Virus record (IMG/VR): IMGVR_UViG_3300015264_000292
Coordinates: 1-28,858 of that record
Length of the DNA: 28,858 nucleotides
Source: a virus
Strand: one strand, 5' to 3'
This document shows, piece by piece, positions 88 to 14,960 of this stretch; position 1 is the first letter of the stretch, and each line of letters starts with the position of its first letter. The notes under the pieces are model-generated. The model ran no database searches and was not told the DNA's origin. It saw only the letters and a program-made list of their open reading frames with translations. The position numbers and the translations under genes were made by a program.

Positions 88-540
88 TTACATCATTGTG
101 GAGATGTAAGCATCCAAGCTGTAGGGGCCACCGCCGGTCAGCATGATGGTCAGCAAGATGATGGCGTATAGCACTTCTGGAAGGTACAGCACGTCATCGA
201 CATAATCAGCCTTGTCTAAAGGCTTCCAGCCACCAATGCGCTTGATACCATCCACCAGTGTTGCCACACAGCAGACGATGAACAAGCCCAAGGCTGCCAG
301 AGGCACCATGAAGCCTATGGCCAACGCCATGCCACCTGAGAATTCAACGCTGGGCACAAACCAGCTATTGAACTCGGCTTCGGGGACATGATCATCCACC
401 ATGGTTTGTACTATAGTGGCATGCCGTGTTGGATTGAACAGCTTGTGGTAGCCCGATATAGTGAAAAATACCCCCATACTTATTCGCAGTATTGTGATGC
501 CGATTAAGGGTAGGTTAAAGCCTAGAAATAGATATTCCAT
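88..540 (-). CDS. DoxX-family integral membrane protein
   Basis: About 150 residues with four hydrophobic segments. The motif GVFFTISGYHKLFNP near residue 25 and the VEFSGGMALAIGF stretch near residue 65 match the DoxX/DoxD-like membrane family, whose cellular members are linked to oxidative-stress or redox complexes at the inner membrane. The ATG at 540 is chosen because AGGAGGAG lies 5-8 bases upstream; an in-frame ATG 14 codons earlier has no such site and runs into the leader hairpin. The next gene starts 3 bases after its stop. DoxX proteins are uncommon in phages, so this is a candidate auxiliary gene; its role in infection is unknown. Confidence 0.75.
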   Translation of the reverse strand: MEYLFLGFNLPLIGITILRISMGVFFTISGYHKLFNPTRHATIVQTMVDDHVPEAEFNSWFVPSVEFSGGMALAIGFMVPLAALGLFIVCCVATLVDGIKRIGGWKPLDKADYVDDVLYLPEVLYAIILLTIMLTGGGPYSLDAYISTMM

Positions 541-546
541 TTTTCT

Positions 547-604
547 CTCCTCCTGTTTGAAGCAAAATGCTTCAAGAAGCATATTTGTTTGTGGTATGCT
601 TCTT
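547..604 (-). promoter_or_regulatory. Leader module with two stem-loops before DoxX
   Basis: Upstream of the DoxX Shine-Dalgarno lie a 7-bp stem (557-563 with 569-575, loop AAAAT) and a 10-bp perfect stem (574-583 with 595-604). The first arm runs directly into AAACAGGAGGAG on the - strand. The same arrangement recurs before the genes starting at 1562 and 2102, and in altered form before 2868, so this is a repeated 5' untranslated module. It may set RNA stability or translation; no promoter hexamers are obvious in it. Confidence 0.6.
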
Positions 605-2102: not shown

Positions 2103-2106
2103 AATC

Positions 2107-2154
2107 TCCTCCTATCGAAGCTGAATGCTTCTCACTGCCCCTTAGCAGGGGCAG
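2107..2154 (-). promoter_or_regulatory. Leader module with two stem-loops before gene at 2102
   Basis: It contains an 8-bp GC-rich stem CTGCCCCT/AGGGGCAG (2135-2142 with 2147-2154, loop TAGC), then a 5-bp GAAGC/GCTTC stem (2117-2121 with 2127-2131), then AGGAGGAG. It is the third copy of the leader layout. The small GAAGC stem is conserved in sequence, while the larger stem is conserved in position only. Confidence 0.6.
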
Positions 2155-2165
2155 GACAGAAGTAT

Positions 2166-2375
2166 TCAACGTTTGCTTCGCAATTTCCATGGTTTACGTG
2201 GCACTGTTGCAGGGTTAAGTCTGCGTTTTTGCTCAAACTCAGTTTCGTTAGCTTGTTTAATTGCTATTTCTACTCGACATGAATCACAACTGAATCTCTT
2301 CTTGAGATCGTACCTGTAGGTAAATTTCTTACCGCAGTTTCCACACTGTCTGCTACGGAAGGAACCTCTTAACAT
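2166..2375 (-). CDS. Small zinc-ribbon protein
   Basis: About 69 basic residues. CGNCGKKF near residue 11 and CDSCRVE near residue 30 form a C-x2-C...C-x2-C zinc ribbon, followed by a Lys/Arg-rich tail (RKPWKLRSKR). Small zinc ribbons of this kind usually bind nucleic acid or partner proteins. The ATG at 2375 is preferred over a TTG 14 codons upstream because no ribosome site precedes the TTG; it overlaps the metalloprotein gene by 23 bases, so coupling is likely. Confidence 0.65.
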   Translation of the reverse strand: MLRGSFRSRQCGNCGKKFTYRYDLKKRFSCDSCRVEIAIKQANETEFEQKRRLNPATVPRKPWKLRSKR

Positions 2376-4589: not shown

Positions 4590-4844
4590 TCACAGGTTTT
4601 GTGGAGGTGATCTTTTGGCAAGCAACATCTTGTAGATGGTGTATCCATGAGGACCAGATAGAGCGCGACAGATGGAAGCATCTTTATCGTTGAAATTGTC
4701 TTTCATACCTTTGTAATTCTTATATTCTAATAGCCATGCCAGACTAAACGGATAAAATTTACCTACACCCAAATAACTGTCTATTTTGACATAGACTTCA
4801 ATACGCAGGGATGCATACTCATCTCTCTGTTTGGTGGTTAGCAT
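4590..4844 (-). CDS. GP-signature small protein (cassette A, sixth gene)
   Basis: 84 residues. The C-terminus RALSGPHGYTIYKMLLAK carries the signature shared with the other cassette proteins (L-x-G-P-H-x-x-T-I-x-K). The N-terminal 60 residues are unlike those of its neighbours. The start overlaps the preceding gene by 26 bases, with GGAAG about 10 bases upstream. Last gene of cassette A; the structured region follows. Function unknown. Confidence 0.7.
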   Translation of the reverse strand: MLTTKQRDEYASLRIEVYVKIDSYLGVGKFYPFSLAWLLEYKNYKGMKDNFNDKDASICRALSGPHGYTIYKMLLAKRSPPQNL

Positions 4845-5103
4845 TGACTTTGTCTTCCCATTTGATCACCAGCATTTTATAGATAGTGTAACCATTTGGC
4901 CCGCATAGCAGTTTCAAGGTTTGAGTAGATTCATCCCGCCAATGCGCAGTCATTTGTTGAATATCAGCATAACCAAGGATATCAGCTATGTGGCGATGAG
5001 ACATATGTGGAAATGGATTAACCAAGATAGAATTAATCATGCCTTTGGATTTCCAATGCCATAACCGCCCATTGAAAGCACTGTAGAGGATACTGCCCAG
5101 CAT
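4819..5103 (-). CDS. GP-signature small protein (cassette A, fifth gene)
   Basis: 94 residues with C-terminal signature LKLLCGPNGYTIYKMLVIK near residues 65-83, followed by a charged tail. The N-terminal part is His/Trp-rich and unrelated to its neighbours. AAGGAGGA 7 bases before the ATG is the strongest ribosome site in the cassette, so this gene may be expressed independently of the upstream overlap chain. Confidence 0.75.
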   Translation of the reverse strand: MLGSILYSAFNGRLWHWKSKGMINSILVNPFPHMSHRHIADILGYADIQQMTAHWRDESTQTLKLLCGPNGYTIYKMLVIKWEDKVNANHQTER

Positions 5104-5129
5104 ATGCTAATCCTCCTTGAAAAATGGGC

Positions 5130-5264
5130 TCATTTTATCCAGCCATGAAGAAAATCATGACCCAGTAGATTAAGTGCACGGGGCTGGGTAACACCCCATG
5201 CTATGAGACATTTAGCTGCATTTATGTGTAGTTCCCAGTCAAGCATGTTATTCACGTGTTTCAT
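5130..5264 (-). CDS. Truncated GP-signature relative (cassette A, fourth gene)
   Basis: 44 residues from the ATG at 5264, which follows TAGGAAG by 4 bases and overlaps the preceding gene by 17 bases. The end RALNLLGHDFLHGWIK aligns with the start of the signature (LKLLGG.HGATLYK) in its neighbours but lacks the Pro and Thr and stops early. It may be a decaying copy or a short functional variant. Too short for usual gene-length limits. Confidence 0.5.
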   Translation of the reverse strand: MKHVNNMLDWELHINAAKCLIAWGVTQPRALNLLGHDFLHGWIK

Positions 5265-5481
5265 CTGACTTCCTAGCCAACAAGATCTTGTATAAGGTAG
5301 CGCCGTGCACCCCACCCAACAGTTTCAAGGTGGGTAGATGATTGTGATAGGGATTTTCGGTTGTAACTCCTAAAACATTTCTGAGCAGTCTTTTAGCACC
5401 GTGTTCATTGAAGCAGTATCCAGCTTCTATCAAGCGTGTTCCAGCCTCCCGGATAATTGAACAACTACGACAATTACACAT
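5248..5481 (-). CDS. GP-signature small protein with Cys N-terminus (cassette A)
   Basis: 77 residues. The N-terminus MCNCRSCSII and the stretch TRLIEAGYC match the next paralogue (5474-5701), and the end LKLLGGVHGATLYKILLARK is the signature, with Val in place of Pro. Three Cys in six residues could hold a metal or form disulphides. The ATG overlaps the previous gene's end by 8 bases. Confidence 0.7.
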   Translation of the reverse strand: MCNCRSCSIIREAGTRLIEAGYCFNEHGAKRLLRNVLGVTTENPYHNHLPTLKLLGGVHGATLYKILLARKSDETRE

Positions 5482-5701
5482 CTGAGGACTTTCTGGCTAA
5501 AAGCATTTTATAGATGGTGGCACCGTGGAAACCAGCTATTAGTTTCAAAGTGCTGAGATTGCCAAGCCATGTCAGTGAGGATGGATAGGGCACGACATCC
5601 TGTAAAGCTAGACAGGCTGTTTCAATATCAGGGCAGAGCCCAGCATTTATCAAGACATCAGCTGCATGTGTAAGAATACAGGAATTACAGTTACATTTCA
5701 T
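5474..5701 (-). CDS. GP-signature small protein with Cys N-terminus (cassette A)
   Basis: 75 residues. MKCNCNSCILTHAADVLINA pairs with the N-terminus of the gene at 5248-5481 (CNC-x-S-C, then LI-x-AG-x-C), and LKLIAGFHGATIYKMLLARK is the signature. The two are clearly sister copies that have diverged in the middle. The ATG overlaps the previous stop as ATGA, the classic sign of translational coupling. Confidence 0.75.
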   Translation of the reverse strand: MKCNCNSCILTHAADVLINAGLCPDIETACLALQDVVPYPSSLTWLGNLSTLKLIAGFHGATIYKMLLARKSSDV

Positions 5702-5961
5702 GGGATAATAAGGTCTTTCCTGGCTAGCATAGCTTTGAAGATAGTCAGACCGTGAGGAGCACAGATTAATCGGAGACGAGCAAGATCATGGTCAGTCAAC
5801 AAACAGGTGTTTCTCAAGATAAAGGGATCTTTGTATCCCAAGGCAGCCCAGAGTAATTGGTCTAAATCATCTGGTTCACTGTAATTGAAAGTCAATTCCA
5901 ATACATTGCAATCACGCAGGTAATGATAGGCAGTGTAGAATATGTGATGTTTGTAGTGCAT
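5698..5961 (-). CDS. GP-signature small protein (cassette A, first gene)
   Basis: 87 residues from the ATG at 5961, chosen because AAGGAAG lies 6 bases upstream; a TTG at 5994 has no ribosome site. The N-terminus is aromatic and His-rich (MHYKHHIFYTAYHYLRD). The end LRLICAPHGLTIFKAMLARK fits the signature. First gene of the cassette; TATACT at 6003-6008 (- strand) could be its -10 box, but no good -35 is seen. Confidence 0.7.
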   Translation of the reverse strand: MHYKHHIFYTAYHYLRDCNVLELTFNYSEPDDLDQLLWAALGYKDPFILRNTCLLTDHDLARLRLICAPHGLTIFKAMLARKDLIIP

Positions 5962-6600
5962 GGATGGAAGCTTCCTTGAATAAATAAAACTCAAACCTTG
6001 TTAGTATAATCATAAAACAGCAGCACATCAGAATTTAATGTGTCGCTAAAAATGGTGAGAATTACGCCCATATCAATCAATAAATTAGGTTATAGAGATA
6101 GGAAGTGTCTTCTGCAAATAAACTATCATCTCAGGATGTAAGATGGGGTGTTATGGGGGTCAATAAATGTAATAGACAAGGTTGGAGCATGGATTACGAC
6201 TAAGACGACGATATATCTTACATACTTCTGTAGATGAGAATGAAGACTAAGATGAGTTAGAATTCATCCATAGTCTTAATAAAATGCATCGTCCTCTTGA
6301 CAAATCAAATCGTCCTCTATATCGCTAACGGCTTGTTAAGCGCGTAGGCGATATGAGGATGAATCGCAAGATGATCTGCATTCATCCGTGGATGAAAATA
6401 GATTCCTCGAGGCGATTCGGTACAAATCGGTAGAGCTCTACCTAAATCGGTAATGCTCTACTACTTTCATCATCTAGTGGATGAGTTGTATTCGTAGATG
6501 ACCCTTTTTCTTCATCATTGTCTTCTTCCACAGAAGCTTCTTTGTCTGTAGGATGAGCTATCTTGGGATGAGCTCTTTGTCTAAGTATGTTTCTTTATAT
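5962..6600. promoter_or_regulatory. Gene-free control region with several repeats and dyads
   Basis: No convincing gene. It holds: two ATCGTCCTCT copies 21 bases apart (6288 and 6309), the first ending in TTGACA (6297-6302) with TATATC 15 bases on; a dyad ATATCGC...GCGATAT around CGCTAAC/GTTAAGCG (6319-6354); a 7-bp palindrome TTCATCC-GT-GGATGAA (6381-6396); two direct copies of AAATCGGTA-NN-GCTCTAC (6424-6441, 6444-6461); and two GGATGAGCT copies near 6550-6575. Spacing near multiples of the helical turn suggests repressor or activator sites. Confidence 0.45.
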
Positions 6601-6646
6601 TAGTTTTCTTCGTGCAAAATGTCTTCTTTCTGCCTCCAAAAATGAA

Positions 6647-6691
6647 CAAAAAAATAGCAGCAAGGGTGCTTGTGGCATCTTTGCCGCTATT
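6647..6691 (-). terminator. Intrinsic terminator of the 6782-7929 operon
   Basis: On the - strand AATAGC-g-GCAA pairs with TTGC-t-GCTATT (arms near 6681-6691 and 6653-6663), followed directly by a run of at least seven T. It lies about 90 bases past the stop of the last gene of the operon. Confidence 0.65.
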
Positions 6692-6781
6692 TGTATCATC
6701 TCCGCAACAACAGTATCAGTTCATTTTCACGGTACAGCAACCACGCCAACCATGCATAAACGTGTTCATTGTGTTGCATTT

Positions 6782-6943
6782 TTATTCAGCTTCATTGCGT
6801 ATGAAATCACCACGTACAATGCTGGTGAGGTCAGTTTCAAACATGGCTGACCCTTCAGCCACGGCGTGTTGCATGCTGTAGGCTTCAATTACTACAGCCT
6901 CAGCGTTGTCAGCCTTGATGACGTATTCATAAAATGTTTTCAT
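6782..6943 (-). CDS. 53-residue hypothetical protein
   Basis: An unlisted small frame: MKTFYEYVIKADNAEAVVIE and then a mixed helical C-terminus ending RNEAE. GAGGGCAGGC lies 3 bases before the ATG, and the whole 22-base leader is duplicated before the gene at 7287, which supports expression. Acidic, soluble, no known motif; it looks like a small alpha/beta protein. Overlapping + strand frames here are judged shadows. The terminator at 6647-6691 follows. Confidence 0.65.
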   Translation of the reverse strand: MKTFYEYVIKADNAEAVVIEAYSMQHAVAEGSAMFETDLTSIVRGDFIRNEAE

Positions 6944-6944
6944 T

Positions 6945-7309
6945 TTGCCTGCCCTCAAAGTGTGAACGGGGCAGCATGATTGCCGCCCCGTTTAGCTCAG
7001 TTGGTACCCTGTGCATTTTGATATGCCCGCCGCATTTCAGTTACAGCATGCATCATGATTGTGTAGGCAGTATCACGCCAAGGTGCTTGTGTTGCCAACC
7101 CTTGAATGTAGGCCCAAACAAATTGTTGGTATGGGCCGGTATTAGCCAACACTTTTGCATAACGGTATTCAATGGCGGTATCAACGCTGGCCAGTTGAGC
7201 ACGTGTCAACTTTACTTTTTTATAACCGGCTGCGTTCAAGCGGTTCAACAACTGCTTAGGGGTGTACTTGACTTGTGTTTTTAACATTTGCCTGCCCTCA
7301 AAGTGTGAA
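6945..7309. repeat. Duplicated 22-bp gene leader (6945-6966 and 7288-7309)
   Basis: TTGCCTGCCCTCAAAGTGTG followed by AA is identical at 6945-6966 and 7288-7309, each ending 1-2 bases from a - strand start codon and each containing the ribosome site GAGGGCAGG. Upstream of each copy is a GC-rich stem: AACGGGGC/GCCCCGTT (6965-6972 with 6985-6992) and GGCCCCGC/GCGGGGGCC (7313-7320 with 7327-7335). Confidence 0.75.
6997..7287 (-). CDS. Hypothetical basic protein
   Basis: 96 residues, basic N-terminus (MLKTQVKYTPKQLLNRLNAA), then a helical core. A VLANTGPYQQFVWAYIQ stretch near residue 47 loosely recalls the GP signature of the flanking cassettes but is internal and lacks the Thr and Lys. It has the duplicated leader and ribosome site. 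No family recognised. Confidence 0.65.
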   Translation of the reverse strand: MLKTQVKYTPKQLLNRLNAAGYKKVKLTRAQLASVDTAIEYRYAKVLANTGPYQQFVWAYIQGLATQAPWRDTAYTIMMHAVTEMRRAYQNAQGTN

Positions 7310-7347
7310 GCTGGCCCCGCATTTGCGCGGGGGCCGTATGATTTACT

Positions 7348-7929
7348 TCACAGCTGTGGTGCGGGCAACTGTTCAGCCGTTGTACCTTCATTGCCGGTCA
7401 CGTCACCAGCCTGAAGCGTGGCCTCAACCAAGGCCTGTTCAGCGGGTGTGGCCGGGCGGGGCTTGCTTGCCCCATTGCCGGGCTTGCGGGCCTTGCTGGC
7501 AGGCTTTTTGACCTTGGCCTTATCAGCTGGCTTGTCAGTTTCAGCCGCACCAGCGGCCACCTTGGCGGCTTCAGCCTTGGCAACGCGCTCAATGCGTTGT
7601 TTGCCCTTGGCCGTGACCTCATTGCGGTACACCTTGTGACCGTTGTCAGCCAGCGGCGCAGGCACTTCACGCAAATATGCGTCAGCAATCAGGCCACGCA
7701 TTTTGTTGAGTTGCGGTGCACCGCAAGCCATCACAATTTGGCTACCAGTCACGCCGCAGTCACGGGTTGACATGGCAATAGCCAAAGCCTGCTTACCGGG
7801 GCGGCAACCTAGCCCGTGAACGCTGGCCAGTTGTTCAGCGCTAGGCTTGGGGCCTAGCACCTTGTGCTGCCAGTTTTTGAACAGGGGTACGTAATGGGTT
7901 GCGGCGTTGGTTTCAGTGATGTTTGTCAT
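7348..7929 (-). CDS. Hypothetical protein with Lys/Ala/Pro-rich tail
   Basis: 193 residues. The first half is a compact domain with CGVTGSQIVMACG near residue 58 and HKVYRNEVTAKGKQRIERV near residue 98, which could be a small winged-helix-like fold. The second half is low-complexity Lys/Ala/Pro (KVKKPASKARKPGNG), like histone-like or disordered DNA-binding tails. A DNA-binding role is an inference. AAAGGTC precedes the ATG, and a TTGACA-N17-TATGTT promoter lies at 8061-8089. The gene is visibly more GC-rich than its neighbours. Confidence 0.65.
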   Translation of the reverse strand: MTNITETNAATHYVPLFKNWQHKVLGPKPSAEQLASVHGLGCRPGKQALAIAMSTRDCGVTGSQIVMACGAPQLNKMRGLIADAYLREVPAPLADNGHKVYRNEVTAKGKQRIERVAKAEAAKVAAGAAETDKPADKAKVKKPASKARKPGNGASKPRPATPAEQALVEATLQAGDVTGNEGTTAEQLPAPQL

Positions 7930-8479
7930 TGTAGTTGACCTTTAGGTTTTAGTCATAGTTGAACCACCTGCCCGTGACCGCACCTTTTCAAGGGTGCCAC
8001 TGTGAGGCTTGGGGGCCTGAGCCCCTGCGCTGCTATATGCAACGCCGTGTCAACAATGCAAACATAATGGCTATGGGTATCAATGTCAATACTACAAACA
8101 AAAATAATATAACGATGTTGTGATGGCAATGCACCTAAGCATGCACATCATCTTGGGGACAGTGTGGCTGGAATACAATGAGGAGGAAGAAGTGAATGGA
8201 GGGGAGGGAGATGATAGTTGCGTGGATGGGACAGACCATGAGAATTTTGCTAGATTAGAGAATGGTCCCCCCGGGGTGCCTCATAAGGTATATCCTCCCC
8301 TTAGGATAGATAGTAAAAAATTGAGTTACTTCTGGAGATGATAAAAATACATATATCCTCCCCTTATGGTGGATACCAAAATTCTAGGATGCTTCCACGA
8401 ATACTAGAAATTTATTCATCCATCTTGAATTCCTGCTTGGGAAAGATAAAATTTATTCAGGTCTCTTCCATAGAAGCTT
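7930..8479. other. Gene-free stretch with hairpins and a duplicated motif
   Basis: No gene is supported. It contains a GGGGC-CTGA-GCCCC hairpin (8012-8025), a CACCTT...AAGGGTG hairpin near 7980-7996, and two identical copies of TATATCCTCCCCTTA (8289-8303 and 8352-8366). Read on the - strand, those copies contain AAGGGGAGG, a strong ribosome site, each followed by a frame of only 8-9 codons. Confidence 0.45.
8061..8089 (-). promoter_or_regulatory. Sigma-70-like promoter for the 7929 operon
   Basis: On the - strand TTGACA (8084-8089) is followed after exactly 17 bases by TATGTT (8061-8066), 130 bases before the first gene of the operon. The -35 box matches the consensus fully and the -10 box at 4 of 6. 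Confidence 0.5.
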
Positions 8480-8767
8480 TTACTTGACGTGCAACCCCCA
8501 TATTTTAAAATAGGTAGTTGCATTTGGACCCAACAGCATTTCCACACGTCGTGCCATTTCATCTGACAGTGTATAATAATCGCCATATTGAACCTTGTCC
8601 TGCTGCTCCAGTTTTATAAACCGAGTCAAGGTGCTGGTTAGCAGCCCTGCATCATGCAGTTTTTGCCTGAGGGCATGCTCAGCGAGGATGGCTTTGGCCA
8701 TCCTCACACCACTAATTTCTTTCAATTGAAAATACCCCTTGAAACTGAAATAATTTGGATCTCTCAT
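8480..8767 (-). CDS. GP-signature small protein (cassette B, seventh gene)
   Basis: 95 residues from the ATG at 8767; GAGAAG lies 7 bases upstream and the ATG overlaps the preceding stop as ATGA. The end RRVEMLLGPNATTYFKIWG is the signature (L-x-G-P-x-x-x-T-x-x-K). The N-terminal two thirds are helical (VRMAKAILAEHALRQKLHDA). Last gene of cassette B. A longer start at 8800 lacks a ribosome site. Confidence 0.7.
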   Translation of the reverse strand: MRDPNYFSFKGYFQLKEISGVRMAKAILAEHALRQKLHDAGLLTSTLTRFIKLEQQDKVQYGDYYTLSDEMARRVEMLLGPNATTYFKIWGLHVK

Positions 8768-8937
8768 TTGAACACTTCTCTGGATACTTCTATCCACCAT
8801 CTGAGGTGTAACGGGCCTATCAGCAGAAAACAGTCATAGCTCTGTTCGTGTTCTATCCAGTACTCTTTATAAAACAGGTGAGTTGGATTGTTGTAAGTCT
8901 TCCAACTGATGCATAGATTGCCATTATCATACTTCAT
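8764..8937 (-). CDS. Short GP-signature relative (cassette B, sixth gene)
   Basis: 57 residues, below common gene-length limits. MKYDNGNLCISWKTYNNPTH opens it, and CFLLIGPLHLRWWIEVSREV near the end resembles a degenerate signature with GP kept and the Thr/Lys lost. It starts 11 bases inside the previous gene with AAGGT 8 bases upstream and ends in an ATGA overlap with the next gene. Its exact fit in the overlap chain is the best evidence that it is real. Confidence 0.6.
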   Translation of the reverse strand: MKYDNGNLCISWKTYNNPTHLFYKEYWIEHEQSYDCFLLIGPLHLRWWIEVSREVFK

Positions 8938-9184
8938 TTATGTTTACCTTGTACCATGCTCTGATGATGGTGGAAGCATATGGTCCTAACAGATAACCTA
9001 TCCGGGTTGCACCTTCTGGAGTTAGCTTCCATATACCGTTCCGTGGATTTTCATATTCACCTACATAGGCCCAAAATTTTACATAATCGCCTCTGCTTTC
9101 TACCAACGGGTGTTCTCCCCAATTGAAATAGGCTTGGTTCATCTTGTCAGTGCTGACTTCAACAGTGTTTTCTGTCATTGTCAT
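8927..9184 (-). CDS. GP-signature small protein (cassette B, fifth gene)
   Basis: 85 residues from the ATG at 9184, favoured over 9214 because GGAAGAG lies about 10 bases upstream. It has the cassette-B core: an aromatic helix (NQAYFNWGEHP), a KFWAYVGE block, then RIGYLLGPYASTIIRAW with Arg replacing the usual Lys. It overlaps the preceding gene by 26 bases. Confidence 0.7.
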   Translation of the reverse strand: MTMTENTVEVSTDKMNQAYFNWGEHPLVESRGDYVKFWAYVGEYENPRNGIWKLTPEGATRIGYLLGPYASTIIRAWYKVNINEV

Positions 9185-9476
9185 CAAATTCACGCTCTTC
9201 CTTGGTTCTACCATTCCTGACTTGATAGGCTTTGAGGAAAGTATAGTGATAGGGGCTGGATAGTTTTTCTATTTTGCGTACAGCGCTGGCCCTGAGCATC
9301 AGTGTGTATTTTCGGTTTGGTAATCGTTTGTGCAGCAGAGGCCCACCTGTCAAACCAAGGTACTTTGCAAAGTCAGGGATTGATTTTCCTTGTTGCCCCC
9401 AAAAGGTTTTCCAGTTGGCTTGTGCATCGAAGTATTTTTCACTGTCTATTTCTGTACCGGGGTCTTGTTTGGGCAT
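9159..9476 (-). CDS. GP-signature small protein (cassette B, fourth gene)
   Basis: 105 residues from the ATG at 9476, which overlaps the upstream stop as TAATG; GGAAAAG is 10 bases upstream. NWKTFWGQQGK and DFAKYLGLTGG are the cassette-B core, and VRKIEKLSSPYHYTFLKAY is the signature with Ser for Gly. The charged tail after the motif is the longest but one of the set. Confidence 0.75.
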   Translation of the reverse strand: MPKQDPGTEIDSEKYFDAQANWKTFWGQQGKSIPDFAKYLGLTGGPLLHKRLPNRKYTLMLRASAVRKIEKLSSPYHYTFLKAYQVRNGRTKEEREFDDNDRKHC

Positions 9477-9766
9477 TATACAGGTCTTTTCCGTGGTGGT
9501 GGTATTTGCCCTTGCCATCCTGTTTTGGCTTTGAAAGCTTTCAGCAAGGCATAGTGGTGTGGGCTGGCTAGCATCTTGATTTTGTTATAAGTTGTTTCGT
9601 CTACTTGGTAGGCCCATGTTGAGTTTAAGCCATTGTAGGGCACAGCTTTATATTCCCCGACAAATTTACTGAATTTAAGTAGCATTCTTGGGTTCGGGTT
9701 CATGACATTGTTCCAATTTTGGATGGCTAGCAGGACTTCATCTCCATTGACAAGATATTTGGTCAT
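9476..9766 (-). CDS. GP-signature small protein (cassette B, third gene)
   Basis: 96 residues. AIQNWNNVMNPNPRMLLKF and KFVGEY are the core, NKIKMLASPHHYALLKAF is the signature with Ser for Gly and Ala for Thr, and the tail is Pro/Arg-rich (PPPRKRPV). It starts 4 bases after the preceding stop without a clear ribosome site, so it is probably coupled. Confidence 0.75.
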   Translation of the reverse strand: MTKYLVNGDEVLLAIQNWNNVMNPNPRMLLKFSKFVGEYKAVPYNGLNSTWAYQVDETTYNKIKMLASPHHYALLKAFKAKTGWQGQIPPPRKRPV

Positions 9767-9770
9767 TGGC

Positions 9771-10040
9771 TTACTCGATCATGTTCTGTGCTTTGTATAT
9801 GGCCAACAGGGTTTTATAGTGAGGGCCATTGAGTGCCCTTATCTTGCGGGCTGACTCTTTAGATACTTCAATGGTGTGGATGGTTCTGCCCCAAAAAGCA
9901 TCTTTCAGTTTTTCAGCTTCGATTTCTTCACCAAGGTATTTAAGATAGGGCTGCATGGAGAAGGATTTGAGCCCATGAAATTCATACCAACGTTCCGCTG
10001 CTGTTTTCAATTCGGTTGTTGTTACGCTCATTGTCTTCAT
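9771..10040 (-). CDS. GP-signature small protein (cassette B, second gene)
   Basis: 89 residues. It has AAERWYEFHGLKSFSMQPYL with LKYLGEE as core and RKIRALNGPHYKTLLAIYK as signature. GAGG lies 7 bases before the ATG at 10040. The start lies 59 bases inside the preceding gene, the longest overlap in the cassette. Confidence 0.75.
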   Translation of the reverse strand: MKTMSVTTTELKTAAERWYEFHGLKSFSMQPYLKYLGEEIEAEKLKDAFWGRTIHTIEVSKESARKIRALNGPHYKTLLAIYKAQNMIE

Positions 10041-10335
10041 CTAACATCCTCAGTTCTAGCATTTTCATGATAGTGTTGAAGTGTGGACCATTTAACATGT
10101 CCAGTTTTCTTTGAATTTCTGGTTTGGTAATGTCAACAATGTAATTTCTTTCATAACTGGGACTTTTTTTATAACCATTTTCATTCCATGGGTCATCAAG
10201 TAACAGGGCCATCATCCGGTATGGCATTGATTTGTCAGTGGTGAACTTAATAGGATCGTTAAAATCAGGTCCGAGCCATTTTTCCATAATGGCATTTAAA
10301 ATATCCATATAAAATAATTCTGATAAGGTTGGCAT
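9982..10335 (-). CDS. GP-signature small protein (cassette B, first gene)
   Basis: 117 residues. The signature QRKLDMLNGPHFNTIMKML is not at the extreme end but is followed by a 26-residue Asn/Glu/Arg tail, part of which is encoded over the next gene. AGGGGG lies 5 bases before the ATG. As the first gene of the cassette it should set expression of the rest; it is divergent from the + strand gene at 10437. Confidence 0.75.
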   Translation of the reverse strand: MPTLSELFYMDILNAIMEKWLGPDFNDPIKFTTDKSMPYRMMALLLDDPWNENGYKKSPSYERNYIVDITKPEIQRKLDMLNGPHFNTIMKMLELRMLDEDNERNNNRIENSSGTLV

Positions 10336-10344
10336 GTTGCCCCC

Positions 10345-10373
10345 TTGATAGTGTGGGTTTCACCAGGTAGCAT
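10345..10373 (+). promoter_or_regulatory. Possible promoter of the rightward gene block
   Basis: TTGATA (10345-10350) is followed after 17 bases by TAGCAT (10368-10373), 64 bases before the first + strand gene. It lies in the divergent gap between cassette B and the rightward genes, where a switch would be expected. The -10 box is weak. Confidence 0.35.
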
Positions 10374-10436
10374 ACTGTCACTTTATATATTCTTCAGCTG
10401 GAAGTTATTCATTCTTTAACTGAAAGGTAGAGTTTA

Positions 10437-10604
10437 ATGGCCAAGTCTAGTAAAGCCCATCCCGGCTTCGCTGCTGTAGAAAAGAAAATAGGACAAAATC
10501 CAAAGATCAAGAATCCCGGTGCAGTGTTAGCTGCTGCGAGCCGTGGTGCTTCCAAAGCGGCACTCAAGGCCAATCCGAGATTAAACCGAGTGAAGGGGAA
10601 ATAA
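10437..10604 (+). CDS. Small basic phage protein, 55 residues
   Basis: MAKSSKAHPGFAAVEKKIG, then GAVLAAASRGASKAA and a basic end. The HPGF...V..KI and A-A-x-RxAS pattern is a familiar small basic phage protein found near structural genes; function unknown. AAAGGTAGAG lies 4 bases before the ATG. The next gene starts 1 base after the stop. Confidence 0.7.
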   Translation: MAKSSKAHPGFAAVEKKIGQNPKIKNPGAVLAAASRGASKAALKANPRLNRVKGK

Positions 10605-10605
10605 A

Positions 10606-10764
10606 ATGCCTAGTAAAAGTCTAAAACAGAAAAGATTTATGTCTGCGGCTGCTCATTCGCCAGAGTTTGCAAAGAAGGCTGGTACCCCAATCAAGGTAGC
10701 AAAAGAATTTCATAATGCTGATAAAGGAAAATATGGGCATAAGCCCAAGGCAAAATCTAAGTAA
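10606..10764 (+). CDS. Small basic phage protein, 52 residues
   Basis: MPSKSLKQKRFMSAAAHSPE, then FAKKAGTPIKVAKEFHNADK and a Lys-rich end. The Q-x-RFM-x-AAAH-x-P-x-FAKK-x-GIP-like pattern is common among short phage proteins of unknown role. AAGGGG precedes the ATG. The stop codon directly abuts the first base of the tRNA, so the three elements are probably one transcript that must be processed. Confidence 0.7.
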   Translation: MPSKSLKQKRFMSAAAHSPEFAKKAGTPIKVAKEFHNADKGKYGHKPKAKSK

Positions 10765-10842
10765 CGCGAGGTGGCGCAGCCCGGTCAGCGCGACGGCCTC
10801 ATAAGCCGTAGGTCATCGGTTCAAATCCGATCTCCGCAACCA
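10765..10842 (+). tRNA. tRNA-Met(CAT), initiator-like
   Basis: A full 78-base cloverleaf: acceptor from C1 (10765), D-arm GCGC/GCGC, anticodon stem ACGGC/GCCGT with loop CTCATAA (CAT at 10800-10802), T-arm ATCGG/CCGAT and encoded CCA. Base 1 is C facing A72, the unpaired end that marks bacterial initiator tRNA. Positions 29-30 keep G-C pairs, but 31-39 is C-G and 11-24 is C-G, unlike the usual initiator. An A5-C68 mismatch and a G6-U67 wobble weaken the acceptor stem. Confidence 0.85.
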
Positions 10843-10848
10843 ACTTAT

Positions 10849-10914
10849 GCTGGATCTTCGCAAGCTACGGTAAGTGCACCCCGTAGGACGGTTGCAAGCC
10901 GTCATCCAGTACCA
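10849..10914 (+). ncRNA. tRNA-like element with minimal D-arm, CCA end
   Basis: 66 bases between two tRNAs. GCTGGAT (10849-10855) pairs with ATCCAGT (10904-10910), with one G-U, and is followed by A and CCA. GACGG/CCGTC (10887-10891 with 10899-10903) makes a 5-bp, 7-base-loop T-arm in the canonical position. The middle arm CTACGG/CCGTAG has a 10-base loop, the D region is only CTTCGCAAG, and there is no variable loop. No standard anticodon loop is visible. It could be a degenerate tRNA, a bizarre functional tRNA or a processing and stability element. Confidence 0.6.
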
Positions 10915-10916
10915 AT

Positions 10917-10991
10917 GCCCGGATAGCTCAGTGGCAGAGCAGCTTGTTTGTAACTAGAAGGTCGGGGGTTCAAGTCCCTCTCCGGGCTCCA
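10917..10991 (+). tRNA. tRNA-Thr(TGT)
   Basis: A 75-base cloverleaf: perfect acceptor GCCCGGA/TCCGGGC, D-arm GCTC/GAGC, loop TTTGTAA with TGT anticodon, T-arm GGGGG/CCCTC with TTCAAGT, discriminator T and encoded CCA. The anticodon stem GCTTG/CTAGA has two mismatches (ends 27-43 and 30-40), unusual for a working tRNA. It starts 2 bases after the tRNA-like element. Confidence 0.85.
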
Positions 10992-10993
10992 TC

Positions 10994-11023
10994 TTGACTT
11001 GAACAAGGAAGAACAATTATCTT
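10994..11023 (+). promoter_or_regulatory. Possible promoter for the cold-shock gene
   Basis: TTGACT (10994-10999) and TATCTT (11018-11023) are 18 bases apart, starting 3 bases after the tRNA-Thr CCA and 37 bases before the cold-shock start. A 5-bp dyad ACAAG...CTTGT overlaps the -10 box. Confidence 0.35.
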
Positions 11024-11059
11024 GTCATTTGTGTTCATTGCTTAGTTAGGGCTTCGAAA

Positions 11060-11287
11060 ATGTCTAGTGATTTTGTTACGGGTGAAGTAAAGTGGTTTAG
11101 TTCTGAAAAAGGTTATGGCTTTGCTCTTGTTGATGGCAAAGATATTTTTATTCATAGTAAACGTTTAAGAGAGTCTGGTTTTTGCAGAGATGCAACAAAT
11201 GTAGCTTTGGATCCGGGTGACAAATTAAAGTTTAAAATTGAATCTGGACCAAAGGGAGCTTTTGCCATAGATATTTCAAAGGGGTAA
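11060..11287 (+). CDS. Cold-shock domain protein (CspA family)
   Basis: 75 residues, the normal size of a single OB-fold cold-shock domain. GEVKWFSSEKGYGFA near residues 8-22 holds the RNP1-like KGYGF, and DIFIHSKRL near residue 28 is the RNP2-like strand. Such proteins bind single-stranded nucleic acid as RNA chaperones or transcription antiterminators. The Phe-Val-His of cellular RNP2 is here Ile-Phe-Ile-His. It may aid translation or antitermination late in infection. Confidence 0.9.
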   Translation: MSSDFVTGEVKWFSSEKGYGFALVDGKDIFIHSKRLRESGFCRDATNVALDPGDKLKFKIESGPKGAFAIDISKG

Positions 11288-11290
11288 AAA

Positions 11291-11659
11291 ATGGATAAGA
11301 AGCCTGATGCAAAAGCTATAGTCACAGTTAAGAGTATCCCTGAAGCTACTGAAAAGAAAAGTTGGGGAGGCTCAATTGAAGATTGGAAAAGTGATTATAG
11401 TGGGTCCAGACGCAAGGGCATTTCATCTTCTGATTGGGATGATAGTCCATCTGACAGGCTTTCAGATAATGCTGGTGAGCGCAAAATGAAGGTTTCTGAT
11501 TCGGAAAAAACTGAAGCACCTAATTACAAGAGTGGCATTAGTGCTTTCGCTAACAAGCCTAAAACTTCCCATGGCTTTGGCCATACAGCAGCAAATTATG
11601 ACGGGCATCACCGAAATAGCGGTCATTCTGGCGCGCACAGAATTGGCAAGAAACATTAA
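11291..11659 (+). CDS. Ser/Lys-rich protein with SGAHRIG tail
   Basis: 122 residues, hydrophilic and low-complexity, probably disordered, ending GHSGAHRIGKKH. The C-terminal tag is shared with the next two genes, although the bodies differ. It starts 3 bases after the cold-shock stop. Small basic proteins in this place could be packaged into the virion or bind nucleic acid, but nothing in the sequence proves that. Confidence 0.7.
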   Translation: MDKKPDAKAIVTVKSIPEATEKKSWGGSIEDWKSDYSGSRRKGISSSDWDDSPSDRLSDNAGERKMKVSDSEKTEAPNYKSGISAFANKPKTSHGFGHTAANYDGHHRNSGHSGAHRIGKKH

Positions 11660-11679
11660 CCTTCAAAGGAATAAATCAG

Positions 11680-11982
11680 ATGCCTACAGATGTCAGACCC
11701 AAGGATTATAAGCCCGGTAAACACGAATCCCAGCCTCAAGGTCACGGAATTGGTATTCCGAAGAACCCGGTGGATAATTTGCCTAAGGGTGGCGGTGCTG
11801 GGAAGCATGAGTCTCAACCCCAAGGCCATAGCCTTGGTGTGCCTACGAGGAGTAATCCTGTGAAAAACATGGGGATACATAGCCCCAACAATGGGGCAGG
11901 TATCTTCAAGTCTGCTACGAGCAGTGTTTTGCGTAATTCAGGCGTAAGCGGAGCGCACCGTCTTGGGTGTAAAAAGAAATGA
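11680..11982 (+). CDS. Repeat protein with SGAHRLG tail
   Basis: 100 residues with two copies of a 20-residue unit (GKHESQPQGHGIGIPKNPV near residue 13 and GKHESQPQGHSLGVPT near 41). It ends SGVSGAHRLGCKKK, the second copy of the shared tag. AAAGGAA lies about 9 bases before the ATG. Pro/Gly/His-rich and likely disordered. Confidence 0.7.
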   Translation: MPTDVRPKDYKPGKHESQPQGHGIGIPKNPVDNLPKGGGAGKHESQPQGHSLGVPTRSNPVKNMGIHSPNNGAGIFKSATSSVLRNSGVSGAHRLGCKKK

Positions 11983-12284
11983 AGAAAAGAATTCGTACAC
12001 AACCATCGAGCCCTTATTACAGTGATGAACCGGCTGTATCTAAGGCTCTTATTGCTGATAAGGCTCCAATTCAGAATACCTCGCTTAGTAATAAGTCAAA
12101 TAAAATAGTTGATAAGAAGCCGGGTAGATTGTCAGGCCTCGCTGGCTTCACCAGCAAGAGTAAACCACATGCGGGGTCTTTTGCTAAGGTACCTGCATTT
12201 GGCACACAAGCAAAACAACCAGCTAGACTTCGTATGAGTGGACATTCCGGGGCTCACAGAATTGGCGCAAAATCTAAAATGTAG
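11979..12284 (+). CDS. Basic protein with SGAHRIG tail
   Basis: 101 residues, Lys/Ser/Pro-rich, ending RMSGHSGAHRIGAKSKM, the third copy of the tag. Its ATG overlaps the previous stop (ATGA), so the two are coupled. No folded domain is evident. Confidence 0.7.
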   Translation: MKKRIRTQPSSPYYSDEPAVSKALIADKAPIQNTSLSNKSNKIVDKKPGRLSGLAGFTSKSKPHAGSFAKVPAFGTQAKQPARLRMSGHSGAHRIGAKSKM

Positions 12285-12295
12285 TGGAGTAATTA

Positions 12296-12826
12296 ATGGC
12301 TTTTGAAATTCACACATCTCAGTTTTGGAATGGTGCTGATCAATTAGCATTTGAGAATGCTGTTCAAAACTATATTAATACGATGCATGCTTTCAATATG
12401 GTGGTAGGCAAGCCTCGGCCAACTGCTGTTCATCCCCTTATTGAAAGGGCAGTTAGGAGAATTCAAATACAAGGGCAGCCAGATAAGTATGTAGCTGATT
12501 ACGTGGTTATTGATGACACACCCCAGCCTCCTTCTCTTGAAGATAAGAAAAACAAACTTATGTCTGATTTAAGGTTTGCTGAAAATGCAGCAATGGAGAA
12601 AGTGCTTCCTGCGCGTAAGATACGTTTAGCGCATATTAAATATGCTGATGCTCTATCTCTTGATGAAAGTGTCCGTACTGCAACACACCAAGAAGATATT
12701 GACTTGATTGGAAAAGTTCAGGGTATCCGTGAACATTATGCATTGATTGCTGCTCAAGCAGAAGCAGAAATTGAAGACTTGACAGAACAGACTATAGACA
12801 GTTGGCAATTACCGACGTTTGGATAA
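12296..12826 (+). CDS. Hypothetical protein before the terminase genes
   Basis: 176 residues, largely alpha-helical. A first part with HPLIERAVRRIQIQGQPD is followed by an acidic linker and a long coil (DLRFAENAAMEKVLPARK). GGAG lies 6 bases before the ATG. The position before the small terminase suggests a packaging or head role, but no family is recognised. Confidence 0.65.
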   Translation: MAFEIHTSQFWNGADQLAFENAVQNYINTMHAFNMVVGKPRPTAVHPLIERAVRRIQIQGQPDKYVADYVVIDDTPQPPSLEDKKNKLMSDLRFAENAAMEKVLPARKIRLAHIKYADALSLDESVRTATHQEDIDLIGKVQGIREHYALIAAQAEAEIEDLTEQTIDSWQLPTFG

Positions 12827-12829
12827 GTT

Positions 12830-13429
12830 ATGGTCAAGATAATCCGACTTGAGACGCCTCAAGTTGTTCCTCGTGATAAAACAAATTACAAAGGTAATCC
12901 AGGAACACCTTCTCAGTTGAGTTTAAGAAATTTACGCAAGCATGCAGTCCCACCGGGCGGTGTTTTGAATCCTTATGGGCATTATGGCAATTCACGTAGA
13001 CAGCGTTATAGGATCACTTGGTTTGGATTGAAACTTAAACCTGCCCTCAGGGAGGAAGCATTGAAACGGAATAGAATTAAACTTCAACAAAAGAGAGCGG
13101 TGCAGCTTGAATTGCATGAGCTACAGGCTTTGGCTCGTGAAAATGCTACAGCGGCAATGCGTACTCTTATTGAAATTGTAAAGAATAAGCGTGCACCCGA
13201 GGCAACTCGAATTGCCGCATCAGCAGTTATCCTTGATCGCGGTTATGGGAAAGCCTCTCAAACCACTATCACGGCAAGTATAACCAATGGCAAAGCAGAT
13301 AATCTCAACTCAACCGAACTCGACAACCGAATTAGCCGAGCTCTCAAGAGAGTTGAAGATCTTACAAACCGAACGCCAAAAGCGGGAACGAGCCAAAAAC
13401 GACCTGCTAACCTACGCCTCTATAATTAA
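12830..13429 (+). CDS. Terminase small subunit (probable)
   Basis: 199 residues. A basic N-terminal half (RRQRYRITWFGLKLKPALRE) precedes the helix-turn-helix-rich stretch ARENATAAMRTLIEIVKNK and APEATRIAASAVILDRGYGK, the pattern seen in phage small terminase subunits. That protein recognises the packaging site and hands DNA to the large subunit. Its last 143 bases overlap the large terminase start in another frame. Confidence 0.65.
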   Translation: MVKIIRLETPQVVPRDKTNYKGNPGTPSQLSLRNLRKHAVPPGGVLNPYGHYGNSRRQRYRITWFGLKLKPALREEALKRNRIKLQQKRAVQLELHELQALARENATAAMRTLIEIVKNKRAPEATRIAASAVILDRGYGKASQTTITASITNGKADNLNSTELDNRISRALKRVEDLTNRTPKAGTSQKRPANLRLYN

Positions 13430-14960
13430 TATACCGAGTGGCCCGTTGCGTGAGGAGAATGAAGACGAGGTCGAGCAGTTTCGGCCTCGTAAGCATTTAT
13501 TTGGGGCGCATCATTTGCTCTGGCTTGATTGTCTTCAGCAAGTCGAAGATGGAAAGATAAAGCGGTTGCTTGGTCTACTTCCACCGGGGTCTGGCAAATC
13601 AATTTATACTTCAGTTGTCTTTCCTACTCACGTTATGGGTAGGTTTAGAAATTCATTTGTTATTGTAGCAAGCTATGGCTCAGAGCTGCCACGTAAGTTT
13701 GGTCGACGTGCTCGTTCCATTATTCAGCAACCAGTCTATAATCGTATTTTTAACACTTTGCTTTCTGAGGAAAGCAAAGCGGCTGATGAATGGGCATTAC
13801 AGAATGGTAGTGAGTGGATGGCAGCCGGTATCTTGACTGGCATCACAGGTAACCGTGCTGATGGTATTGTTTGGGACGATTTGATTAAGGGGCGTGAGCA
13901 AGCGGACTCACCAGTCATCAGGCAAAAAACATGGGAGGCTTATATTGATGATCTCCTCACCCGTAAGAAACCTCAAGCTTGGGAAATTGGAATCACTACC
14001 CGATGGCATGAGGACGATCCTGCGGGTCGTATCCTACCCGAAAATTATAACGGTCAAAGTGGGTTATTGCAGTGTCGAGATGGTAATGAATGGTATGTCG
14101 TATGCTTACCTGCTGAGTGTGAACGTGAGGACGACATACTGGGGCGCAAGGTAGGTGAGATACTTTGGCCTGAGTGGTTTAACGAGGAAATGTTTAGGTC
14201 ACCTAAACGTAATCCCCGTACTTGGTCATCCCTGTATCAACAGCGCCCAGCCCCTGATACGGGCATGTTGTTTAAATCTGAATGGTTGAAAACCTTTGAA
14301 CAAAATCCTCATACTGGGTATCCAGTTGATTTTGAGCTCGGTGATCTGAATATTTATGGTGCCAGTGATTATGCGGTGACCAAGGATCGTGAGAATTATA
14401 CAGTTCATATTGTGGTGGGCGTGGATAACAAAAGCAATATCTATGTGCTGGACCTTTGGCGTAAGCAGGAGTCATCAGATGTTTGGGTTGAGACTTTTTG
14501 TGATTTGGTCAAGTTTTGGAAGCCAATTGGGTGGGCTGAGGAAACAGGTCAGATCAATAAAGGTGTTGGTCCGTTTCTTGTGAAACGTATGCGTGAACGA
14601 CAGGCACATGTCGCTCGTGCGCAATTTCCACCTACCAAATCAAAAGCCCAGCGTGCACAGAGTATCATCGGCCGTATGGCGCAAAATGGACTTTATTGTC
14701 CTTTTGGTGCATCTTGGTTTGGTGAGTTTAGAAGGGAACTGCTTCTGTTTGATGCGGGTACCTTTGATGATCAAGTGGATGCTTTGGGTTTGATAGGGAT
14801 GGTGCTAGATAGAATGATCTCAGCTGACAGTTCTTCTCAATTCAAGGAAGAGCCAAAAGTGTTTTCTACTGTTCCCGGTTTGTGTACAGTTACTTTGGAA
14901 GAAATGTTTGAAGCCAATGAACAGCGTAGCACCAAGACTGGTATTTTACGGATACACTGA
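13287..14960 (+). CDS. terL: Terminase large subunit
   Basis: 557 residues: an N-terminal ATPase with Walker A PPGSGKS near residues 99-105 and a Walker B-like GIVWDD near 193-198, and a C-terminal nuclease with YGASDYAVTKDRENYTV near 355-371 and a DDQVDAL end near 495. This motor drives DNA into the prohead and cuts it. The only ATG is at 13287, which forces the 143-base overlap with the small subunit; no strong ribosome site precedes it, so a later non-ATG start is possible. Confidence 0.93.
   Translation: MAKQIISTQPNSTTELAELSRELKILQTERQKRERAKNDLLTYASIINIPSGPLREENEDEVEQFRPRKHLFGAHHLLWLDCLQQVEDGKIKRLLGLLPPGSGKSIYTSVVFPTHVMGRFRNSFVIVASYGSELPRKFGRRARSIIQQPVYNRIFNTLLSEESKAADEWALQNGSEWMAAGILTGITGNRADGIVWDDLIKGREQADSPVIRQKTWEAYIDDLLTRKKPQAWEIGITTRWHEDDPAGRILPENYNGQSGLLQCRDGNEWYVVCLPAECEREDDILGRKVGEILWPEWFNEEMFRSPKRNPRTWSSLYQQRPAPDTGMLFKSEWLKTFEQNPHTGYPVDFELGDLNIYGASDYAVTKDRENYTVHIVVGVDNKSNIYVLDLWRKQESSDVWVETFCDLVKFWKPIGWAEETGQINKGVGPFLVKRMRERQAHVARAQFPPTKSKAQRAQSIIGRMAQNGLYCPFGASWFGEFRRELLLFDAGTFDDQVDALGLIGMVLDRMISADSSSQFKEEPKVFSTVPGLCTVTLEEMFEANEQRSTKTGILRIH

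Follow-up and report, generated by a model that had tools for sequence, protein, structure and literature searches.

The window analysed here is a 28,858-base virus record (IMG/VR IMGVR_UViG_3300015264_000292, taken at its full length) and is probably a fragment. Its structural module, with genes for the terminase, the portal (phrog_12082) and the major capsid protein (phrog_9953), lies on the plus strand from 11 kb on, and two cassettes of small-protein genes run along the minus strand from 10.3 kb downward. An earlier note on this DNA described thirteen minus-strand open reading frames (ORFs) of the cassettes as one family of phage proteins. All thirteen are present at or near the positions that it gave, and eleven of them carry, as it had claimed, a C-terminal motif, with the consensus L-x-[GS]-P-[HY]-x-x-T-[IL]-x-K-(4x)-R. 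The genes, named m1 to m13, are listed below with their E values against a hidden Markov model (HMM) of the family and with the identity to their orthologues in the related phages G1 (IMGVR_UViG_3300012096_000007, 64.8 kb) and G2 (3300027903_000007, 57.7 kb). A third relative that carries the family is G8 (3300037840_000217, 15.1 kb). A separate assembly of 7640 bp (L125), 99.97% identical, confirms window positions 7313-14952, including the right cassette.

10386-10408, minus strand: conserved near-palindrome ATAACTTCCAGCTGAAGAATATA in the divergent region before m13.
9982-10335, minus strand: m13, first gene of the right cassette; 117 amino acids, acidic (isoelectric point 4.9); full-length HMM E 1.3e-22.
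9771-10040, minus strand: m12, 89 amino acids; HMM E 2.8e-21; orthologues 73-75% identical.
9476-9766, minus strand: m11, 96 amino acids; HMM E 5.2e-21; G2 orthologue 60%.
9159-9476, minus strand: m10; HMM E 8.9e-22; orthologue 67%.
8927-9184, minus strand: m9; HMM E 5.3e-20; start likely at 9184 or 9178, not at 9214.
8764-8937, minus strand: m8, 57 amino acids, a separate small conserved protein outside the family.
8480-8767, minus strand: m7; HMM E 6.2e-14, the match starting at the methionine at 8767.
7348-7929, minus strand: conserved 193-amino-acid neighbour between the cassettes, with no match in Pfam or PHROGs; kept in a sister phage that lacks the cassettes.
5698-5961, minus strand: m6, first gene of the left cassette; HMM E 1.3e-12; G1 and G2 orthologues 49%.
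5474-5701, minus strand: m5, with an N-terminal CxCxxC; HMM E 1.1e-12; 4-base overlap with m6.
5248-5481, minus strand: m4, with an N-terminal CxCxxC; HMM E 2e-14; grouped in the tree with m5 and a G1 member.
5130-5244, minus strand: m3, a truncated member (38 amino acids, beginning MLDWELHINAAKCLIAWGV) without the motif.
4819-5103, minus strand: m2, 94 amino acids; HMM E 6.9e-21; orthologues 63-72%.
4590-4844, minus strand: m1, 84 amino acids; HMM E 1.1e-16; G2 orthologue 63%.

The start of m10 was shifted from 9518 to 9476 (MPKQDPG), following its G1 orthologue, m7 is likely to start at 8767, where it overlaps m8 by 4 bases, rather than at 8800, and m6 starts at 5961 and not at the TTG at 5994. 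With orthologue-supported starts, neighbouring genes are at most 26 bases apart and overlap by up to 59 bases, which corrects the 4-59 bases of overlap described earlier. The 59-base overlap is that of m12 and m13, and its length is equal in all three phages.

Two of the thirteen ORFs had been counted as carriers of degenerate motifs, and neither is one. The first, m3, corresponds to the first ~38 residues of a member and aligns with the N-terminal part of an intact G1 member (L116:5674-5931) that has a counterpart in G2, whereas the C-terminal half and the downstream TauD gene of G1 and G2 are absent in the window. The second, m8, is unrelated: it is missed by the family HMM, and its 'IGPL' sits in a different, conserved sequence context. 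In G1, a homologue of m8 (L116:1712-2143) forms the N-terminal part of a fusion with a family member, so m8 is a separate protein and not a decayed member. The fusion suggests a possible joint function of m8 and the family member whose gene comes next. The family in the window thus consists of eleven members and one truncated copy.

The HMM built from these eleven members (E ≤ 0.01 per record) has 14, 10 and 7 matches in G1, G2 and G8, 31 altogether, and none in 47 other relatives. Of the left-cassette members kept out of it, an HMM of the right cassette regains m1 at E 0.005 and m2 at E 0.1. In other contigs this HMM identifies 26 frames at E < 0.01, which are 25 members and the 3' half of a member interrupted by a stop codon. 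Reversed frames give none at E 0.01. The HMM of the left cassette recovers m12 only at E 0.99. Random splits of the members into six and five regain on average 83% of those held out (E < 0.05), and the poorest split regains 20%. From the window alone the link between the two cassettes is weak; it is proved by the addition of the sister phages. The expectation that an HMM of one half of the family would find the other half is therefore borne out with m3 and m8 excluded, and firmly so once the sister phages are included.

Iteration of the full-length profile gathers approximately 45 distinct members, aligned over up to 95 positions, from four phages and fragments of such genomes, and gives no clear match elsewhere in the stretches searched. 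The members fall into three gene groups, and there are 8-14 copies per genome, all different, some of the genomes being incomplete. The wide alignment (A3) is too diverse for a contig scan, and close sub-alignments were used instead; they return only the same phages and their fragments, plus a longer single-copy relative in G029 and G048, sister phages whose capsid proteins are 85% identical. By these profile searches, the family is restricted to a small clade of uncultured tailed phages.

Conservation extends beyond the C-terminal motif. The best-conserved columns are L65 (41 of 45 members), G/S67 (41), P68 (39), H/Y69 (42), T72 (34), L36 (33), K/R75 (35), R/K80 (35) and G37 (27), and position 16 is a W or Y in 29 of 39. 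The front half contains a second anchor, [FL]xx-h-L-G, separated from the GP turn of the motif by 16-51 residues across the members and by only 18 in m5. One subgroup, comprising m4, m5 and two G1 members, starts with CxCxxC. The earlier statement that everything outside the motif diverges strongly understated the likeness, as the profile spans the whole domain. Judged from the alignments, the family is a single orphan domain of ~75-95 residues rather than a tag on unrelated fronts.

The structure of m12 predicted by AlphaFold2 with the family alignment is a small helical fold of good confidence (predicted local distance difference test, pLDDT, 86.5; predicted template modelling score, pTM, 0.77) with a strand at residues 2-4, helices at 5-19, 26-33 and 36-47, a strand at 53-55, and helices at 58-67 and 72-83. 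The model of m2 (pLDDT 81.4, pTM 0.68) has helices at 7-19, 23-28, 34-43, 48-53, 57-66 and 71-93. In both single-chain models, the predicted helix positions place the motif at the turn between the last two helices. By these models, the domain is composed of an N-terminal helix, a helix bearing [FL]xx-h-L-G, a variable segment, and a final pair of helices with the [GS]-P-[HY] turn between them. The proposed division into a constant C-terminal part and a variable front is retained; the constant part is, however, not a docking tag on unrelated fronts but the last two helices of a conserved domain.

Comparison of the m12 model with known folds (VIA-align 2) ranks the helix-turn-helix (HTH) protein HigA2 first, with a Z score of 6.2 over 67 residues and a root mean square deviation of 2.9, then Aca2, and below it SinR, P2 C, P22 c2 and lambda cI; HTH proteins form most of the list. 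Several members of the family are basic, m10, m11 and m12 among them, and a palindrome is present in the early promoter region. These features would be expected of diversified DNA-binding regulators with a Cro/XRE-like five-helix domain, which would act on phage promoters, including their own by way of the palindrome, and would read DNA with helix 3, located in the most variable segment. However, Foldseek finds for m12 only weak matches, the best with E 1.5 in the PDB and none better than E 0.3 in the PDB and BFVD; several XRE/HTH entries are among them, as are T4-like phage proteins from BFVD with E 0.46 and up. The m2 model has no match to an HTH or any other fold. At the sequence level, the family has no HTH match in Pfam or NCBIfam, and its profile-profile comparison with HTH_3 (hhalign against 25 sequences) gives a probability of 1%, within the range of column-shuffled decoys. 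Membership in the XRE/Cro-C1 group is therefore unsupported by sequence. Furthermore, the sequences of the CxCxxC subgroup contain 16-19 residues from helix 2 to the GP turn, mostly used by helix 4, which are too few for helix 3; the conserved residues fall outside the supposed DNA-reading helix; and m13 is acidic in all three phages. We consider regulators of this type possible but rather doubtful. The conserved hairpin itself was also considered as a putative LacI-like DNA-reading unit, from its pattern G-x-x-x-x-T-[IL]-x-[KR], but the positions of the reading face are often hydrophobic.

Searches of Pfam, PHROGs, NCBIfam, PADLOC and the sequences of the PDB gave isolated single-member matches only (best E 0.012), none of them common to several members. 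No significant match to single members emerged from tblastn searches of phage and plasmid records, and the family is absent (E ≤ 0.1) from six searched genomes among the distant capsid-protein relatives, which are mostly metagenome-assembled genomes.

The strand that carries the cassettes runs on in G1 to genes for an AAA ATPase (phrog_1297), a helicase, a primase and a sliding clamp. Since the replication genes are on the same strand, the minus strand is most likely the early strand, and the cassettes are small genes clustered at its promoter-proximal position. The near-palindrome before m13 has a 13-base core, CTTCCAGCTGAAG, which is identical in the window, G1 and G2 and occurs once per genome stretch. 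It lies between promoter-like hexamers, TTGAAT and TATATA, which were read by eye and have a 17-base spacer; we infer a function for the palindrome.

The positions of the genes cluster across the phages in the tree, with strong support for m1, m6, m11, m12 and m13; m2 and m10 also group with their orthologues, below the strict limits of support. The ratio of nonsynonymous to synonymous substitution rates (dN/dS) is 0.12-0.35 per family position (0.17-0.29 for m13 and its orthologues in G1 and G2). The capsid protein has a ratio of 0.04-0.08, and other genes of the structural module have 0.07-0.23, with the reservation that some dS values are near saturation and that overlapping frames bias the estimates. 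By these estimates, each measurable family position is under purifying selection.

The content of the cassettes differs among the phages. Two members of the right cassette of G1 and G2 (L116:1685 and 2112, and their G2 counterparts) are missing from the window, m7 has no orthologue in G1 or G2, and the G1 counterpart of m9 (L116:1365-1712) is split by a TGA stop. G1 and G2 have a third group of members elsewhere, adjoining an XRE regulator gene, and their left cassette contains a TauD gene as an insertion or a fusion. In G007, a sister phage whose capsid protein is 90% identical, the stretch from the ORF 7348 homologue (identified by eye) to the cold-shock gene is free of any cassette. The best reading of these comparisons is that the cassettes are accessory and were made by tandem duplication of one domain. 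The cassettes are tightly packed and promoter-proximal on the minus strand, and they evolve, to judge by turnover, truncation and their dN/dS values, as accessory early genes do; in this the earlier interpretation is supported. The truncated m3 and the stop-interrupted counterpart of m9 could be taken as signs that the copies are near-neutral by-products of local duplication, kept by chance and decaying. However, most members are intact, and every measurable orthologous position has a dN/dS well below 1, with synonymous sites often near saturation. Neutrality is largely refuted by these ratios, and we regard it as highly improbable.

Polar residues are among the best conserved positions of the family despite the differing fronts, and the fronts carry different extras: CxCxxC in one subgroup and an in-frame TauD dioxygenase in G2. 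It is conceivable from the sequences that the family serves as a set of adaptors. Conserved polar residues of the last two helices (H69, T72, K75 and R80) would dock every member onto one host partner, for example RNA polymerase or a protease, and different clients would be brought by the variable fronts, among them the cysteine-motif (possibly metal-binding) and enzyme-fused versions. Nevertheless, the fold alone could explain the conservation, as G-P-H-x-x-T is a helix-capping turn. In G2, one family member reads in frame into the TauD-family protein, but a ribosome-binding-like AAAGG ahead of an internal ATG offers TauD a possible start of its own, which makes translation of the two as a single protein uncertain; the G1 counterpart is a separate gene (PF02668, E 1.7e-15). 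Adaptors of this kind appear unlikely to us.

The anatomy of the family has good support. The explanation of its function that we prefer, with roughly even confidence, is that the cassettes encode a host-directed early arsenal of small proteins. The position, size, clustering and accessory distribution of the genes point to it, as does a precedent from archaeal viruses, in which duplicated small early genes, including that of the anti-CRISPR protein AcrID1, cluster and diversify (PMC11065993). The cassettes would be the earliest genes to be transcribed upon infection, in translationally coupled operons driven by the divergent promoter, and their products would act on the host by shutting off or redirecting its functions or by blocking its defences. 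Each position would have specialised after duplication; the target would be set by the variable middle and front of the domain, and the last two conserved helices would keep the fold or a shared contact. The earlier suggestion that the proteins are aimed at varied targets is unsupported in that form: the conservation of positions and the purifying selection suggest specialised functions but point to no particular target.

Several observations weigh against an early arsenal. The weak HTH resemblance of m12 makes a regulatory role conceivable. The family has no sequence similarity to a described anti-defence or takeover family, the PADLOC models among those searched being models of defence and not of anti-defence. 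Selection at the whole-gene level is purifying and not positive, with no arms-race signature, a result limited by the overlapping frames and the saturated dS. The promoter before m13 is putative, from a consensus reading only.

Other features of the window and its relatives were recorded alongside the family. A gene for a DoxX-family membrane protein (PF07681, E 2.6e-17) at window 88-582 on the minus strand is kept in G1 and G2. For the terminase large subunit of the window, the best match in G2 (L007:2745-4100) extends over no more than 324 of 557 residues, and it begins ~1.35 kb past the end of the small-subunit match, which suggests that the G2 large-subunit gene is interrupted by an insertion. 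Cassette-less sister phages encode the cell-cycle regulator GcrA (PF07750; L185:3874-4314 on the minus strand, G011, G029 and G048), which was not found in G1, G2, G8 or the window fragment. The presence of GcrA suggests alphaproteobacterial hosts for the cassette-less phages, with the proviso that the numbers are small and some of the contigs are fragments.

A repeated structured 5' leader of ~60-70 nucleotides precedes many of the early genes in G1 and G2 and a single gene in the window. It is located at window 2105-2168 on the minus strand, in several copies each at L120 6710-10137 (minus strand) and L116 11626-14163 (plus strand), and at L117:1452-1510 and L121:17671-17728; it was not found before the small-protein cassettes. 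The structure predicted by RNAalifold is a three-way junction with TTCTG paired to the Shine-Dalgarno region AGGAGGAG, and the leader hairpin covaries, with 4 pairs changed on both sides. The leader, for which Rfam gave no hit in any of the window, L116 and L120, is a candidate for a new translation-control RNA. In addition, an identical 23-base leader, TTTGCCTGCCCTCAAAGTGTGAA, occurs at window 6944-6966 and 7287-7309, before the neighbouring minus-strand ORFs 6782-6958 and 6997-7287.

The family is absent from every library searched, and arrays of duplicated small early genes have already been described in archaeal viruses. Should the copies act on host systems, a single locus would supply a ready set of natural variants of one fold with which new host targets or defences could be sought. 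With the family HMM, further arrays of this kind can be recognised in metagenomes.

Among tailed phages, the window is related through its major capsid protein to the Mx8-like phages, with 45-54% identity to the capsid proteins of Bradyrhizobium phage ppBjS10J-1 and Myxococcus phages Mx8 and Mx9; IMG/VR contigs include capsid proteins up to 95% identical to that of the window. The Mx8-like phages differ in the cassettes: tblastn with three single family members gave no significant match in the phage collection, in which a megablast of the whole window also found no match. The Cro/C1 (XRE) HTH proteins, such as HigA2 and Aca2, are similar in size to the members of the family, and the order of their helices weakly resembles that in the m12 model, one of the two made. 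They differ from the family in the lack of profile similarity, in the missing room for helix 3 in the CxCxxC subgroup, and in m2, which is unmatched. Literature searches for tailed-phage analogues found nothing closer than the early anti-defence clusters of archaeal viruses, such as the duplicated AcrID1 genes of rudiviruses (PMC11065993). In the archaeal viruses, early expression has been shown, and anti-defence activity for some of the genes (PMC11065993), whereas both are only inferred for the family described here, which belongs to a tailed phage and has a domain without a detected relative. The two systems share small clustered genes, several paralogues of which are present in each virus, and the archaeal proteins are likewise mostly without database relatives, with HTH or ribbon-helix-helix domains in some of them (PMC11065993).

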